Positions 57,005-63,569 of a DNA stretch of 64,000 nucleotides are shown here, piece by piece. The position numbers and the translations under genes were made by a program. The stretch covers positions 1 to 64,000 of the forward strand of contig CANJIL010000004.1 of NCBI GenBank assembly GCA_947474455.1, given 5' to 3'. The notes under the pieces were generated by a model that saw only the letters and a list, made by a program, of their open reading frames with translations, searched no databases and was not told the DNA's origin. Within the stretch, counting starts at the first letter, position 1. The number at the start of each line of letters is the position of its first letter. The DNA comes from Hyphomonadaceae bacterium (lineage in GTDB: Bacteria > Pseudomonadota > Alphaproteobacteria > Caulobacterales > Hyphomonadaceae).

Positions 57005-58687
57005 CTACTTGCCCAACAGCTTTTTCAGCATGGAGGGCTTGGCCGTCTGAATTTCGCGACCCGTGAGCAGCGCAGCGAGCTGATCGAGCCCGTGCGCAAC
57101 CTTGGATTCCGGCGCCACGTCGAAGATCATCTGGCCATTGTTGGCTGCGGTGCCGAAGAGTTGCGCGTCAAAAGGCAGCACCAGGGATGGCTCGACGCCG
57201 ATGGCCTGGCCGAAGTCCTTCGCCGGGATCTCCGGACGCTTCGGCAGCCCCACCATGTTTAGCACCAGCCTGGGCGGATTGTCGTTTGGCCGCGCGGCCT
57301 TGAGGAAGTCGATCAGATTCTTGCCGTTACGCAGCGAAGCGAGATCCGGCCCAGCCACGACCACCAGCTCGTCGGCCGAGATGACGGTTGACTTGAACCA
57401 GTCGCTCCAGATGTGCGGCAAGTCCAGCACCACGAAGGGAACCGAGCCCCGGACCTGCTCCAGCACGCGGGTGTAGGTTTCAGGGTCGAGGTTGTACGTG
57501 CGGTCCAGCGTCGCCGGCGCCGTGAACAACGAGAGCCTGTCGGTCGCCTTGGTGATCAGACGGCCCATGATCGCATCGTCGAACCGGTCCGGCGACATCA
57601 GCGCGTCAGCGATGGTCGCTTGCGTGTCCTGGTTGAAGTCGAGCCCGGTTGTGCCGAAGTTCAGGTCGAGGTCGACCAGCGTCGCATTGACTTTGCAGCG
57701 CTCAGACAAGGCCCAGGCGAGGTTATGGGCGATGGATGAAGCGCCCACGCCGCCCTTGACGCCCGTGACCGCCAGCGTCTTGCCGGTGAACGGAGCTTCC
57801 GGGTCGGTGAACAAGTTGGCGATCGAGCGGATCATCTGCACCGGATCGATCGGCGCGACGAGATACTCGGAAACGCCCCGGCGCATCAGCTCGCGATAGA
57901 GACGGATGTCGTTGGTCTGGCCGAGAACGACGACACGGATGTTCTCGTCGCAATACTCAGCCAGCGAATCCAGCTCGGCTAGCAGGTTGCGCGGATCGCC
58001 TGAGCCCTCGATGACGAGCAGGTTCGGCGTCGTCTCGTTGACGTAGTACTGCATCGCCGCCGGAACACCGCCTTCGAAAACTTCCATCGTGACATTCTTC
58101 ATGCGGCGATCGTTCATGATCGTCCGCAGGAGATTGAGCGATGCCGTGCGCGTGCAGAAGCCGTGGACCGTGATGCGCGGTATCGGGCGGTCGCCGCCTG
58201 TATGGGCGGCGCCGAAGGAGTAGTCGTAGCCAAGGCCCTGCCCCGCGGCGTCGTCAGCGATAGGTTCGGCCTCGGCCACCGTCATCGGCGGGAGGTCTTC
58301 GATAGGCGGCTCGGCCGGCTTCGGCTGCAGCCACGGCTCGTCAGAGTACGTGATTGGCTTCGCCGCAGGAGGATGCGACGGCGCATCGAAACCTTCGGCT
58401 TCGTCCGAAAACTCATCCTCGAATTGCGCGAAATCCTGCTCGACCGCCTTGTATTCGGAGGATGCGGGCGCCGCCGGCTGCAAAGTCCGCACGGCTTCCG
58501 GCGGAGGCAGCGTCATGAAGTCGTCGTCTTCGGGATTGAAGGCGAGGTCGCCAAACGCTGGCGTGTTGTTGTCCTGACCGCGCAATGCAGCTGCGAAAGT
58601 CGCGCCGATCGGCGCGTCCATGTCGAGATCGTGAGCGAGCTGATCGAGATCGCTGTCATCATCAAACTTGTCGCGTGGTCCGGTCAT
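57005..58687 (-). CDS. cpaE: Tad pilus localisation ATPase-like CpaE/TadZ
   Basis: Receiver-like N-terminal domain, GVKGGVGASSIAHNLAWALSE P-loop; LDLNFGTTGLDFNQDT. Confidence 0.93.
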   Translation of the reverse strand: MTGPRDKFDDDSDLDQLAHDLDMDAPIGATFAAALRGQDNNTPAFGDLAFNPEDDDFMTLPPPEAVRTLQPAAPASSEYKAVEQDFAQFEDEFSDEAEGFDAPSHPPAAKPITYSDEPWLQPKPAEPPIEDLPPMTVAEAEPIADDAAGQGLGYDYSFGAAHTGGDRPIPRITVHGFCTRTASLNLLRTIMNDRRMKNVTMEVFEGGVPAAMQYYVNETTPNLLVIEGSGDPRNLLAELDSLAEYCDENIRVVVLGQTNDIRLYRELMRRGVSEYLVAPIDPVQMIRSIANLFTDPEAPFTGKTLAVTGVKGGVGASSIAHNLAWALSERCKVNATLVDLDLNFGTTGLDFNQDTQATIADALMSPDRFDDAIMGRLITKATDRLSLFTAPATLDRTYNLDPETYTRVLEQVRGSVPFVVLDLPHIWSDWFKSTVISADELVVVAGPDLASLRNGKNLIDFLKAARPNDNPPRLVLNMVGLPKRPEIPAKDFGQAIGVEPSLVLPFDAQLFGTAANNGQMIFDVAPESKVAHGLDQLAALLTGREIQTAKPSMLKKLLGK

Positions 58688-58702
58688 GTCCGCCCCTGAT
58701 TT

Positions 58703-59383
58703 CTATTTCACGGCCGTGCTGATGGCGCCGTCAGCATCGCCATTGCGTTCAGCGGAGGTCTTCTCGCCATTGCGATACTTCGAGAACACGACGCCGCGGC
58801 GCACGGTGTCGGCGGGATCCATCCGCCGCGGACCAACCAGGTCCGATGCGTTGGCGATCTGGGCCGCAAGGTTCACAGAAGTTGCGCAGCCGAATGACGG
58901 CAGCGCAAGGTTAGCGCCTGTCCACGCGAAGTCCCAATGTGAAATGTCTGGGCAGTTCGGCACGACGGCGTTGTAGGTGCGATAGCTGATTATCAGCGGA
59001 GCAGTCCTTGCGCCTGTGCCGTCATAGGTGCCCTCGGCGATGTGAGTTGGCTCGATGCCTTCGGCCAGCATCACGGCGCGCGCGTCAGCGGCGGCTCGCA
59101 TGGCCGAGATATCGTCAGGCCCGTTGCTGGGGCGTGAAATGATTACGGCGCCATGGCCTTCGGCTCGATAGTTGGCGGCAAAGTATTTCACCGCGTCACG
59201 CTCGGCCTCGTTGAGCTTCTCGCCGGCGACGATCGTATCGATCTTGAGATCCGCGGTGGCCTCCTCCGCGACAATCTGGATATGTGAGCGACTTGCCAAG
59301 GCAATCTCTTCAGGAGAATGCTGGCAGGCGCTCAGTGCAACCAGTGAGGCGCCTGCAAATACGATATGGAAACGCGAAGACAT
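58703..59383 (-). CDS. cpaD: pilus assembly lipoprotein CpaD
   Basis: Lipobox LSACQHS; VISRPSNGPDD..; NCPDISHWDFAWTGANLALPSFGCATSVNLAAQIANASDLVGPR. Confidence 0.92.
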   Translation of the reverse strand: MSSRFHIVFAGASLVALSACQHSPEEIALASRSHIQIVAEEATADLKIDTIVAGEKLNEAERDAVKYFAANYRAEGHGAVIISRPSNGPDDISAMRAAADARAVMLAEGIEPTHIAEGTYDGTGARTAPLIISYRTYNAVVPNCPDISHWDFAWTGANLALPSFGCATSVNLAAQIANASDLVGPRRMDPADTVRRGVVFSKYRNGEKTSAERNGDADGAISTAVK

Positions 59384-59396
59384 TCCGTGCCTCCCC

Positions 59397-60914
59397 TCAA
59401 TCGACAATGAAGCCGCTGGCGCCGCTCGGAGGCGAAGCCTTCGCCGCAGCTGAACCAGGCACGGCGTAAACGTCGTTCAGTTTGCCAAACAGAACCGTGC
59501 GCGCGTCCGTCGCGGTCACGTAGCCACGGTCTGGATCGCGAAAGCCTTGCGGATCTGTAGGATCAACCAAGTAAGGCGTCACAATCACGACCAGCTCGGT
59601 TTCGTCGTTCTGGAAGTCACGGCTGCGGAACAACGCACCGAGAACCGGGATGTCTTTCGCGGCCGGAATGCCATCGAGGCTCTGCTTCGTCGATTCCTGG
59701 ATAAGGCCAGCGATCACAAGGCTGCCGCCTGAGGGAATTTCCACCGTTGTTTCTGCACGCCGAACCTTCAGCGCCGGAATGGTCAGCGACGTCGCAGCAA
59801 CGGCCTGACCGGTGGCGGGATCGATCGTCACGCCAGAGTCGGCTTGGAAACCGCCCTGCTGGGTGAGCTCGGACACCTCGACAGAAAGCTGGAGCGAGAT
59901 GCGGCCTTCCGACAGCACGACCGGCGTATAGCCGAGGCCCACGCCGAACGGTTTAAACTCGATGGAAATCTTGCCTTGGTCCTGTGCGACCGGCACGGGG
60001 AATTCGCCGCCGACAAGGAACTTGCCAGCCTCGCCTGAGATCGCTGTGAGGTTCGGCTCGGCCAGCGTGCGCACGATGCCGACACGTTCGAGGGCATTGA
60101 GCTTGACGCCGACGCCGCTCTGCTGCGCCGCGCCAACGAGGTTCTTGTAGCCAAGGTCTGCTGCGAGGCCTCCAAGCGCGGTGCCCGCGATGGGGAATGC
60201 GTTGGACGACGACATCGAGAAGTTGTTGTCGAAATTGTTGCCCGAAAGCTGACCGAAACCAATCGCGCCCGACAGGTTGATGCCCATCTGCTTGATGACC
60301 GTGCGCTGCATCTCGACGAAGCGCACCTTGAGCGTGACCTGGTCCTTGCCATCGATCGACATCAGGTTGAGGATCGAGTTGTCGTCCTTGGCGTAGGTCC
60401 GCGCAAGCTGCACGACGCGATCGGAGCCCGAAAGGTTCGGCACGGAGCCGGCGAGGATGATACGGCCGTTCACCGCTTCGACCTGCACCTTGGAGCCAGG
60501 GACGTGGCGCTTGATGAGTGTGCGCAACTGATCCATGCCCGCGACGCCGTCGGTGACGGAGATCTCGAGCACTTTCACCTTGCGGCCTGAGCGGTCGAGA
60601 AACACGATATTGCTCTCGCCCGGCGCGACGCCCATCACGGCGATGCGGCGGCGGTCGCGTGCGATAATGTTGGCGATCTTGTCGTTGGCGATGATGACAT
60701 CGTCGATGTCGGTGTCGAACTCGATCATGTAGGACTTGTTGACCGTGAGCGTCAGCACTTCTGTTGCGGTCGGAGCCGATGCATCAGGCACCGCTACGCG
60801 GCGTGCGGGAGCCCCGCTGAGTTCGTCGGCAGGCGGCTGGGCCAGCGCGCCGGGCGAAATCACGACCAGGGTCGTAGCAAGGCTCGCGAGGACAATGTTA
60901 CGCTTGGCTGACAT
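59397..60914 (-). CDS. cpaC: pilus secretin CpaC/RcpA
   Basis: VNKSYMIEFDTDIDDVIIANDKIANIIARDRRRIAVMGVAPGESNIVFLDRSG; secretin core EPNLTAISGEAGKFLVGGEFPVPVAQ..GLGYTPVVLSEGRISLQLSVEVSEL. Confidence 0.95.
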   Translation of the reverse strand: MSAKRNIVLASLATTLVVISPGALAQPPADELSGAPARRVAVPDASAPTATEVLTLTVNKSYMIEFDTDIDDVIIANDKIANIIARDRRRIAVMGVAPGESNIVFLDRSGRKVKVLEISVTDGVAGMDQLRTLIKRHVPGSKVQVEAVNGRIILAGSVPNLSGSDRVVQLARTYAKDDNSILNLMSIDGKDQVTLKVRFVEMQRTVIKQMGINLSGAIGFGQLSGNNFDNNFSMSSSNAFPIAGTALGGLAADLGYKNLVGAAQQSGVGVKLNALERVGIVRTLAEPNLTAISGEAGKFLVGGEFPVPVAQDQGKISIEFKPFGVGLGYTPVVLSEGRISLQLSVEVSELTQQGGFQADSGVTIDPATGQAVAATSLTIPALKVRRAETTVEIPSGGSLVIAGLIQESTKQSLDGIPAAKDIPVLGALFRSRDFQNDETELVVIVTPYLVDPTDPQGFRDPDRGYVTATDARTVLFGKLNDVYAVPGSAAAKASPPSGASGFIVD

Positions 60915-60922
60915 GACTGACC

Positions 60923-61801
60923 TCAACCTGCCGGCGTCGAACTGACGCTCTCATTGCCGTAGCGGTAGACGCGCACGCCTTCGACATCCTGCGAAACTCC
61001 GTCACGATAGACGCGGCCCGCGCTCGTTGCGCCTTGAGGCGACTGCATGTCGGCGATCGAACGCAGCGTAAGTGCAATTTCGCCGGCTTTCTTTGCTGAG
61101 CTCAGCAATGTTGCGTCGCGCTCGGTCAATTCCAGCGTCGCGCGCGAGCCGATGATCACCTGGCCCTGCCCCGATCGGGGCGACTCGGCGTCGTTTTCGG
61201 CCGGCGGGGCGCCATAGCTCGCATCGATGGCAAGCACGCGGACGTTGGACAGGATGATGTCAGAGCGGATGTTCATCTTGTTGTTGCCGCCTGAATTGTT
61301 GTCGATGGAGCGCGTGACGATGACATCGACGCGGTCATTGGGCTGAATGAAACCGCCCGCCGCAACCTCGGCAGCGATTTCGACCGAGACAGCGCGCATG
61401 CCTGGCGTGAGCATCACGGCCATGAAGCCTGCGGTACCCGGATGCATCAGCTTGCTGATAGTGACTGGTTCGCCCGGGACGAGATCGAAGCGCGCGACAG
61501 CGCCGACCATCTTTTCGAGGCCTTCCGGCTCTTTCTCTTTCTCGATGAAAGCGTCGGCCGGCGCGCTCGCCGGCCATTCCTGCCAGCGCAGGTCGTCAGC
61601 GGACACAAACTTGCCAACGGGAATTGCTTCCTTCGCGACGAGCACCTGCTTCGTCGGTATTTCGACGGGCTTGGGCGCTTCCGCCGGCGCAGCGACAGCC
61701 GCAACAGCAGGTGCGGACGTCTGCACAGAGCGCACAAGGAAGACGGCGGCAATCGCGGCGCCAGCCGCCACCAGAAGAATGATCAGTCGCACAGGCGACA
61801 T
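60923..61801 (-). CDS. cpaB: Flp pilus assembly protein CpaB/RcpC
   Basis: SAF-like VLVAKEAIPVGKFVSADDLRWQEWP; GMRAVSVEIAAEVAAGGFIQPNDRVDVIVT. ATG 61801 with GGAGGGCCTTC. Confidence 0.93.
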   Translation of the reverse strand: MSPVRLIILLVAAGAAIAAVFLVRSVQTSAPAVAAVAAPAEAPKPVEIPTKQVLVAKEAIPVGKFVSADDLRWQEWPASAPADAFIEKEKEPEGLEKMVGAVARFDLVPGEPVTISKLMHPGTAGFMAVMLTPGMRAVSVEIAAEVAAGGFIQPNDRVDVIVTRSIDNNSGGNNKMNIRSDIILSNVRVLAIDASYGAPPAENDAESPRSGQGQVIIGSRATLELTERDATLLSSAKKAGEIALTLRSIADMQSPQGATSAGRVYRDGVSQDVEGVRVYRYGNESVSSTPAG

Positions 61802-61884
61802 GAAGGCCCTCCGCCGCAGGCCCCCAAAGGCCTGAAAGGGGCCCTGTCCTGAGCGTGACATTTTCACGAGGGCTCTAAAGGAGA

Positions 61885-61947: not shown

Positions 61948-62454
61948 CTAGGCGCTGAAACCCGCAAGACCGGCCGCGAGCACGGGCGATGCCGGCGCCG
62001 CGAGAAGCGCGCCCGCGGCGATCGCCACCGCATAGGGCGCGCCTTCTTCTGGTGACATCAGGCGATTGAGCCACGGTTTAGCACTCGACAGCTTCATGCG
62101 CCTGAGGACGATCAGCACGGCGGCAAGCGCACCGCCCGCGATTGCCATGCCCATGATGAAAGAAGCGCTAGCGGAAAGTCCGGTCCACAAGCAGGCCGCC
62201 GCGATCACTTTCGCATCCCCTCCCCCGAAAACGTTGAGGTAGAAGAGAGCTGCACAGACAAGCAACACGCCGGCTCCGAACACCAGGTGCCAACCGATCT
62301 GGTCCCAGGAGAGTCCAGCCGCAAGGGCGGCGGGAAGGAAAGCAACGCCGAGCACGATCGACACCCAGTTGGGTATCGTCATGGTGGAGACGTCGTGCCA
62401 GGCGGCGTAGATCAGCAAAAGCGGAAACGCCAGGCAGAGCAGCGACGTGATCAT
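61948..62454 (-). CDS. cpaA: prepilin peptidase CpaA/TadV
   Basis: YAAWHDVSTMTIPNWVSIVLG and GGGDAKVIAAACLWTG are A24 peptidase Asp motifs. Confidence 0.93.
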   Translation of the reverse strand: MITSLLCLAFPLLLIYAAWHDVSTMTIPNWVSIVLGVAFLPAALAAGLSWDQIGWHLVFGAGVLLVCAALFYLNVFGGGDAKVIAAACLWTGLSASASFIMGMAIAGGALAAVLIVLRRMKLSSAKPWLNRLMSPEEGAPYAVAIAAGALLAAPASPVLAAGLAGFSA

Positions 62455-62538
62455 CTTCCACCCAAGTTGTGATCCAAGCAACTTACTTCAATTCGCTGAA
62501 GGAAGCGTTGACCGCTCCAAGTATTCGCAAAAAGAAAG

Positions 62539-62565
62539 AAGCCGCGGACGAGGTCCGCGGCTTCT
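62539..62565 (-). terminator. intrinsic terminator of the flp pilin gene
   Basis: GAAGCCGCGGAC-GAG-GTCCGCGGCTTC followed by T-rich TTTCTTTTT on the minus strand. Confidence 0.85.
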
Positions 62566-62603
62566 CCATGTCTTATGCCAGCTGTGCAGCCGGCGTAGGC
62601 TTA

Positions 62604-62792
62604 TTAGGGAGCCGGGGGGGGGCCAGCGCCCGTCAGTTCCGCAGAAACGTCGCCGAAGGTGGTGGCAAGGTTCGTACCAAGCGTCGACACGGCGCCGATG
62701 ATGGCGACGGCGATCAGAGCAGCGATGAGGCCGTACTCGATCGCGGTCGCGCCGGATTCGTTCTTGAAGAATTTTTTCATGACGTTTTTCAT
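62604..62792 (-). CDS. flp: Flp family type IVb pilin
   Basis: MKNVMKKFFKNESGATAIEYGLIAALIAVAIIGAVSTLGTNLATTFGDVSAELTGAGPPPAP: prepilin G/ATAIEYGLIAAL motif; GGAGAAGC upstream of the ATG. Confidence 0.95.
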   Translation of the reverse strand: MKNVMKKFFKNESGATAIEYGLIAALIAVAIIGAVSTLGTNLATTFGDVSAELTGAGPPPAP

Positions 62793-63128
62793 TTTTGCTT
62801 CTCCGCTATGCATGGCTTTTGTTTTCCCACAGTGAATTACCATCACCCGCAGTAGGTATGTTGAGTTCTACATGAGCTGGATTGATATCACGTAAAACGA
62901 ACAAGAAATTTGCAGGTATTCGTGTTCATTCGCGCTTAACTAGGTTCGCAACGATTGATTCAATACTTTGAATAGACCAATAACGCCGATGCCGCCGCCA
63001 GGTCGCGTGTATTATAGACTCACGCGCGCGAACCCCTCCCTGCCGCACTGAAGCACGGGCCAATGCCTTAGCCATTGATTCAGTCTTGATCCCTATCGTG
63101 ATCCGAACGGCCCCCCCGGGAGACGTCC

Positions 63129-63569
63129 ATGACGAAGAATTTTTTCGCTGCTCTGGCATTCTGCCTCACGCTTGCGCCGGCTGCGGCTGCGGATCCTTTT
63201 AACGTGAAGGTCGATCAGACGGTGACGCTAAAGCTAAGCCAGCCGGCGAACTCGGTCGTCGTCGGCAACGCGACGGTGGCTGATGTGGCGGTCCACGATC
63301 CGCGCACGCTGCTGGTGACAGGCAAGGCGTTCGGCTCGACAAACCTCACTGTTCTCGATCGCGCCGGCAACACAATCTATTCGAGCACGCTCAACGTCGG
63401 CGGCGAGGAAGACAACGGCCTCACGATCGTGCGCAGCGGCGCGACTTACTCATACTCGTGCATGGACAAGTGCCGCGCCACACCGATGGTTGGTGATGCA
63501 CCCAACCACTTCCAGGACGTTATGGGCACCGTCACTGCCAAGGCCCAGACCGCCAAGGGCGGCAACTAG
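63129..63569 (+). CDS. pilus assembly N-terminal-domain protein (stand-alone CpaC/RcpA N-terminal-like domain), exported
   Basis: Signal peptide; VDQTVTLKLSQPANSVVVGNATVADVAVHDPRTLLVTGKAFGSTNLTVLDRAGNTIYSSTLNV parallels the CpaC N-terminus; Cys-containing tail YSCMDKCRATPMVGD. Confidence 0.85.
   Translation: MTKNFFAALAFCLTLAPAAAADPFNVKVDQTVTLKLSQPANSVVVGNATVADVAVHDPRTLLVTGKAFGSTNLTVLDRAGNTIYSSTLNVGGEEDNGLTIVRSGATYSYSCMDKCRATPMVGDAPNHFQDVMGTVTAKAQTAKGGN

Follow-up and report, generated by a model that had tools for sequence, protein, structure and literature searches.

A nine-cytosine tract before the stop codon of a Hyphomonadaceae Flp pilin gene probably encodes a species-specific tail

The 64,000-nucleotide stretch of a Hyphomonadaceae genome analyzed here (the window) carries a pilin gene in which nine consecutive cytosines lie shortly before the stop codon. 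We consider it probable (roughly 0.8) that this is an ordinary Flp pilin whose species-specific Gly/Ala/Pro tail is encoded by consecutive CCC codons. The alternatives are that the tract switches the C terminus of the pilin by slippage, that its length is a sequencing or assembly error, and that it serves programmed ribosomal frameshifting.

The pilin gene and the Tad locus

The predicted protein matched the Flp_Fap family of Pfam (PF04964; E = 3.6e-20; 71.9 bits, with a cutoff of 32.2), in agreement with the identity proposed in a preliminary description of this DNA. The predicted leader is MKNVMKKFFKNESG, its cleavage site being placed before ATAIEY by analogy with Caulobacter crescentus, and the short mature pilin is predicted to have 48 residues (ATAIEYG...GAGPPPAP). 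The mature pilin aligned, as far as the start of the tail, with the solved structure of Caulobacter PilA (8u1k; E = 7e-9), in which the mature chain begins with an identical ATAIEYG. According to Pfam, the pilin gene is followed in 3' direction and on the same strand by cpaA, cpaB (RcpC/SAF), cpaC (secretin), cpaD, and a gene for a CpaE-like ATPase.

62604..62792, minus strand: Flp/Fap (type IVb/Tad) prepilin gene, 62 aa (Pfam PF04964 and alignment to 8u1k)
61948..62481, minus strand: cpaA, prepilin peptidase (Pfam PF01478)
57005..61867, minus strand: cpaB, cpaC, cpaD, and cpaE-like Tad genes (Pfam RcpC/SAF, Secretin/pil_N/BON, Pilus_CpaD, and AAA_31)

With the prepilin peptidase and the Tad assembly genes adjoining it, the gene encodes an ordinary major Flp (Tad) prepilin and heads the pilA-cpaABCDE locus of this Hyphomonadaceae bacterium. 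The named relatives of the pilin include metagenome-assembled genomes of this family, with no second genome of the same species among them.

Upstream of the pilin gene, a block at about 62840-62880 of the window (minus strand; TGTAGAACTCAACATACCTACTGCGGGTGATGGTA) is near-identical in several loci of the same genus (L009, L012, and L016) and is probably a promoter or leader. The divergent gene adjoining the pilin gene (63129-63569) encodes a stand-alone pilus-formation N-terminal-domain protein (PF13629), and a run of seven C is found just 5' of its start (63111-63117). The genome encodes a further Flp-like pilin outside the window, divergent at 40% identity (L002; G000:C9:37428-37598, minus strand), with an Ala/Pro tail ending in GASAAP.

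Reading frame of the tract and alternative C termini

The nine consecutive C reported in the preliminary description are present on the minus strand (62622-62614) and in frame, the 3' end of the gene reading ..CTG ACG GGC GCT GGC CCC CCC CCG GCT CCC TAA TAA. All other C/G runs in the window are shorter.

62614..62622, minus strand: C9 tract, in frame as GGC CCC CCC CCG (G9 on the plus strand)
62607..62630, minus strand: codons of the Gly/Ala/Pro C-terminal tail GAGPPPAP, species specific and missing from most same-genus orthologs
62601..62606, minus strand: tandem stop TAATAA, common to the ortholog of genome G011 (first stop at 62606-62604)
62577..62594, minus strand: conserved small hairpin in the 3' untranslated region, with compensatory changes in same-genus relatives
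62573..62575, minus strand: stop of the C8 frame, 5' of the terminator hairpin (10 additional residues)
62529..62564, minus strand: conserved intrinsic terminator between the pilin gene and cpaA, with a GAAGCCGCGGAC stem and a U-tract
62488..62490, minus strand: stop of the C10 frame, 3' of the terminator U-tract

Translation of every tract length from 5 to 13 showed that the three frames yield different C termini from a homopolymer near the 3' end. Tracts of 9, 6, and 12 C give proteins of 61 to 63 aa ending in ..PAP, C9 itself being the 62-aa prepilin that ends in GAGPPPAP. Tracts of 8, 5, and 11 C give proteins of about 72 aa ending in ..RLPNKPTPAAQLA; that of C8 has exactly 72 aa, ends in GAGPPRLPNKPTPAAQLA, and is 10 residues longer, with a basic tail in which RLPNKPTPAAQLA takes the place of PAP. 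With 10, 7, or 13 C, the product has about 101 aa and a tail of net +6. The predicted mature lengths are thus 48 residues for C9, 58 for C8, and 87 for C10, while 39 to 50 are usual in Flp pilins. The C8 tail expected in the preliminary description was recovered by translation and can now be described as a clean 10-residue extension with a stop before the terminator. Its other forecast, that C10 reads through the terminator hairpin into a long basic tail, also held, with one refinement: since the first stop in this frame lies beyond the terminator, transcripts that finish there would be non-stop, as judged from the sequence.

The terminator consists of a hairpin (62564-62538) and a U-tract (62537-62529). 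In the same-genus comparison, 11 of the 26 predicted pairs of the small hairpin and the terminator showed compensatory change, and it is the retention of this hairpin and the strong terminator in the genus that accounts for the conservation of the DNA 3' of the pilin gene. We also considered whether this conservation reflects the coding of alternative tails and rejected the idea: the tails result from reading the hairpin region behind the gene in other frames, and what is conserved there are RNA hairpins, not protein.

Conservation of the tract among relatives

None of the same-genus orthologs from 11 genomes has the tract. Most of them stop right after the helix (..SM or ..AM followed by the stop), around 8 to 10 residues earlier, and the tails that do exist vary freely between species (TATAP in G011, TGAGGGEGE in G020, GGAGGDGGGDAGAGAAD in G023, and GASAAP in the paralog of the same genome). 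The closest tail is that of G011, ..TATAP-TAATAA, which has the Ala-Pro and the tandem stop in common with the pilin studied here and lacks a C run. The fact that G011 also has AP-TAATAA indicates that C9 represents the native frame rather than a +1 or -1 error.

The 140 distinct Flp genes in the loci retrieved for comparison were examined for runs within their final 45 nt. The maximum was 9 in this gene, 6 in one other (a run of A), and 5 in two, with no run above 4 in the remainder. Across 398 genomes of the order, a pattern requiring an Flp gene and, at the appropriate distance behind it, at least seven C matched one genome, this one; the anchor of the pattern occurs in 33 of 60 genomes, meaning that about half of the 398 were effectively probed. 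The C9 tract is an outlier among all the Flp genes surveyed.

Expected and observed C/G runs

A C9 run is not improbable by composition alone: dinucleotide shuffles of the window gave 2.35 ± 1.98 C8 matches, and 65 of 100 had at least the observed number. Codon-level comparison gave a different picture of coding DNA. Synonymous-codon shuffling of the longer genes in the window (150-aa cut, below which the pilin gene falls) led to an expectation of about 0.8 runs of at least 9 C/G, and none was seen. Over 51 kb of coding sequence, there were 3 runs of length 6 (16.9 expected) and 1 of length 7 (5.0 expected). Long C/G runs are purged from coding DNA here, about fivefold at lengths 6 and 7, and the persistence of the C9 in the pilin gene accordingly asks for a reason. 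The pilin run is one of few survivors, an exception situated where a frameshift would be least damaging. For DNA that encodes AGPPPAP with local codon use, the probability of a run of at least 9 is 0.045; CCC is used twice in succession in the tract, although CCG is twice as common in the genome (0.49 versus 0.25, with codon statistics drawn from the window).

Contingency loci favor surface or modification genes. A pattern search with overlapping matches merged returned 33 C/G runs of at least 8 in the whole genome, and exact C9 runs numbered 7, within the normal range of relatives (0 to 15). Using Pfam to judge which runs are coding, we identified in-frame runs of 8 in mreB, dxr, a trpG-like class-I glutamine amidotransferase gene, and the genes of a MarR regulator and an M19 dipeptidase. 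The tsaE gene carries an in-frame G9 toward its 3' end, beyond the matched domain (L186:1349-1357, minus strand), and the other long runs are mostly outside recognizable genes. The runs of 8 or 9 in mreB, dxr, the trpG-like gene, and tsaE indicate that C/G runs are not specific to surface genes. We found no concentration of tracts in surface or variable genes among the Pfam-recognized genes with runs of 8 or 9, and the other long C/G runs did not mark a set of contingency genes, being mostly outside recognizable genes and otherwise in housekeeping genes.

Some of the runs have features of their own. Three poly-C tracts lie about 60 to 100 nt 5' of the apparent start of minus-strand open reading frames: 14 C at L181:2343-2356 (G000:C40; 396 aa), 14 C at L184:2183-2196 (G000:C51; 316 aa), and 9 C at L182:2212-2220 (G000:C42; 344 aa). 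These are possibly promoter-region repeats and, if anything here is phase variable, they are better candidates than the pilin gene. A run of 11 C (L178:1856-1866, G000:C33) is found about 44 nt 5' of the start of an open reading frame that by eye resembles an IS110-type transposase. A run of 21 G at the end of G000:C28 (L176:3001-3021), nine bases from the contig end, is probably an assembly edge effect.

Explanations of the tract

If the pilin is an ordinary one with a species-specific tail, the C9 would be no more than the GGC-CCC-CCC-CCG coding of Gly-Pro-Pro-Pro in a GC-rich genome. It would survive because slippage within a few codons of the stop carries little cost, and we infer relaxed selection at the 3' end as the reason for its survival. 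As with 9-mers in general, the background rate of slippage may be raised. The tail itself is expected to be flexible.

Alternatively, replication slippage at the C9 could switch an exposed pilin tail, with C8 giving an extended basic form and C10 an OFF state in which reading into the terminator would leave a non-stop mRNA and the pilin mostly lost. The frames and stops on which such a switch would depend were computed directly and exist, and C-terminal phase variation by 3' tracts of similar length, including one in a pilin gene, is known in Neisseria gonorrhoeae, where G8 tracts are reported to vary (PMC5320596). The exposed C terminus assumed for Flp pilins in the preliminary description has its counterpart in the solved Caulobacter Tad pilus, in which the pilin C terminus points outward and that of one C. 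crescentus pilin occupies a pocket of the maturation protein of phage PhiCb5; adsorption of PhiCb5 fails on a non-host strain with a pilin altered at the contact residues (PMC11067988). Since the C terminus touches a phage in Caulobacter, a switch would matter, and this contact, together with the gonococcal class, makes the contingency idea biologically reasonable. Nevertheless, we regard switching as unlikely. No relative surveyed has the tract (same-genus orthologs from 11 genomes, a pattern search effectively reaching about half of 398 genomes of the order, and 140 distinct Flp genes), tracts are not enriched in surface genes, with 8- and 9-mers in housekeeping genes such as mreB, dxr, tsaE, and the trpG-like gene, and the alternative-frame tails fall in a region kept as RNA hairpins. 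The pilin gene as a switching locus, the central proposal of the preliminary description, thus gained no positive support beyond the run itself. On its own, a homopolymer at the end of a surface gene is weak evidence, given that housekeeping genes of the same genome contain runs of comparable size. On the basis of a brief search of the literature, we know of no earlier locus of this kind among alphaproteobacterial Tad systems. Were switching real, this would be the first as far as known, with escape from pilus-binding phages or altered adhesion as the payoff. Tad-piliated environmental bacteria would have a simple way to alter the phage-contacting portion of the pilus, and C-terminal phase variation would extend beyond the host-adapted bacteria in which it has been described.

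Homopolymers are error-prone in sequencing, and the true tract might be C8 or C10 in an assembly of 103 contigs that has other long C/G runs, one of them of 21 nt at a contig end. Such an error, which the preliminary description took as the main alternative, is very unlikely: only C9 (or C6 or C12) reaches the Ala-Pro-TAATAA that G011 also has, which speaks against a simple +1 or -1 error, and the C9 product is near the usual mature length, unlike those of C8 and C10. It is most improbable that a minor form of the pilin with an extended C terminus arises by programmed +1 ribosomal frameshifting on CCC-CCC-CCG. On CCC-C, tRNA-Pro is known to slip (PMC4519876), and the +1 product would be the C8 protein with its clean stop before the terminator, but the extended tail is conserved in no relative, no stimulatory element was found, and relatives that lack the C run conserve the 3' hairpins to the same degree.

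Comparison with known systems

Like the C-terminal phase-variable genes of N. gonorrhoeae, including the pilin gene NGK_2161, the gene analyzed here has a homopolymer of similar length near its 3' end, and its three frames give three different C termini. In N. gonorrhoeae, tract variation between strains has been seen for several genes, whereas the C9 is known from one genome, is missing from the relatives of that genome, and does not belong to a set of similar loci in surface genes. The phase-variable poly-G of Neisseria pilC is also a C/G homopolymer in a pilus gene, but it lies toward the 5' end and acts as an ON/OFF switch, while the tract in the pilin gene is close to the stop. The nearest counterparts are C. 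crescentus PilA and the Flp/Fap pilins (PF04964; 8u1k and 8u2b), which share the ATAIEYG start of the mature protein. As in C. crescentus, this is a short helical pilin with a C terminus predicted to point outward and with cpa genes adjoining its own; it differs in the tail GAGPPPAP with its C9 and in a predicted mature length of 48 residues rather than 45.
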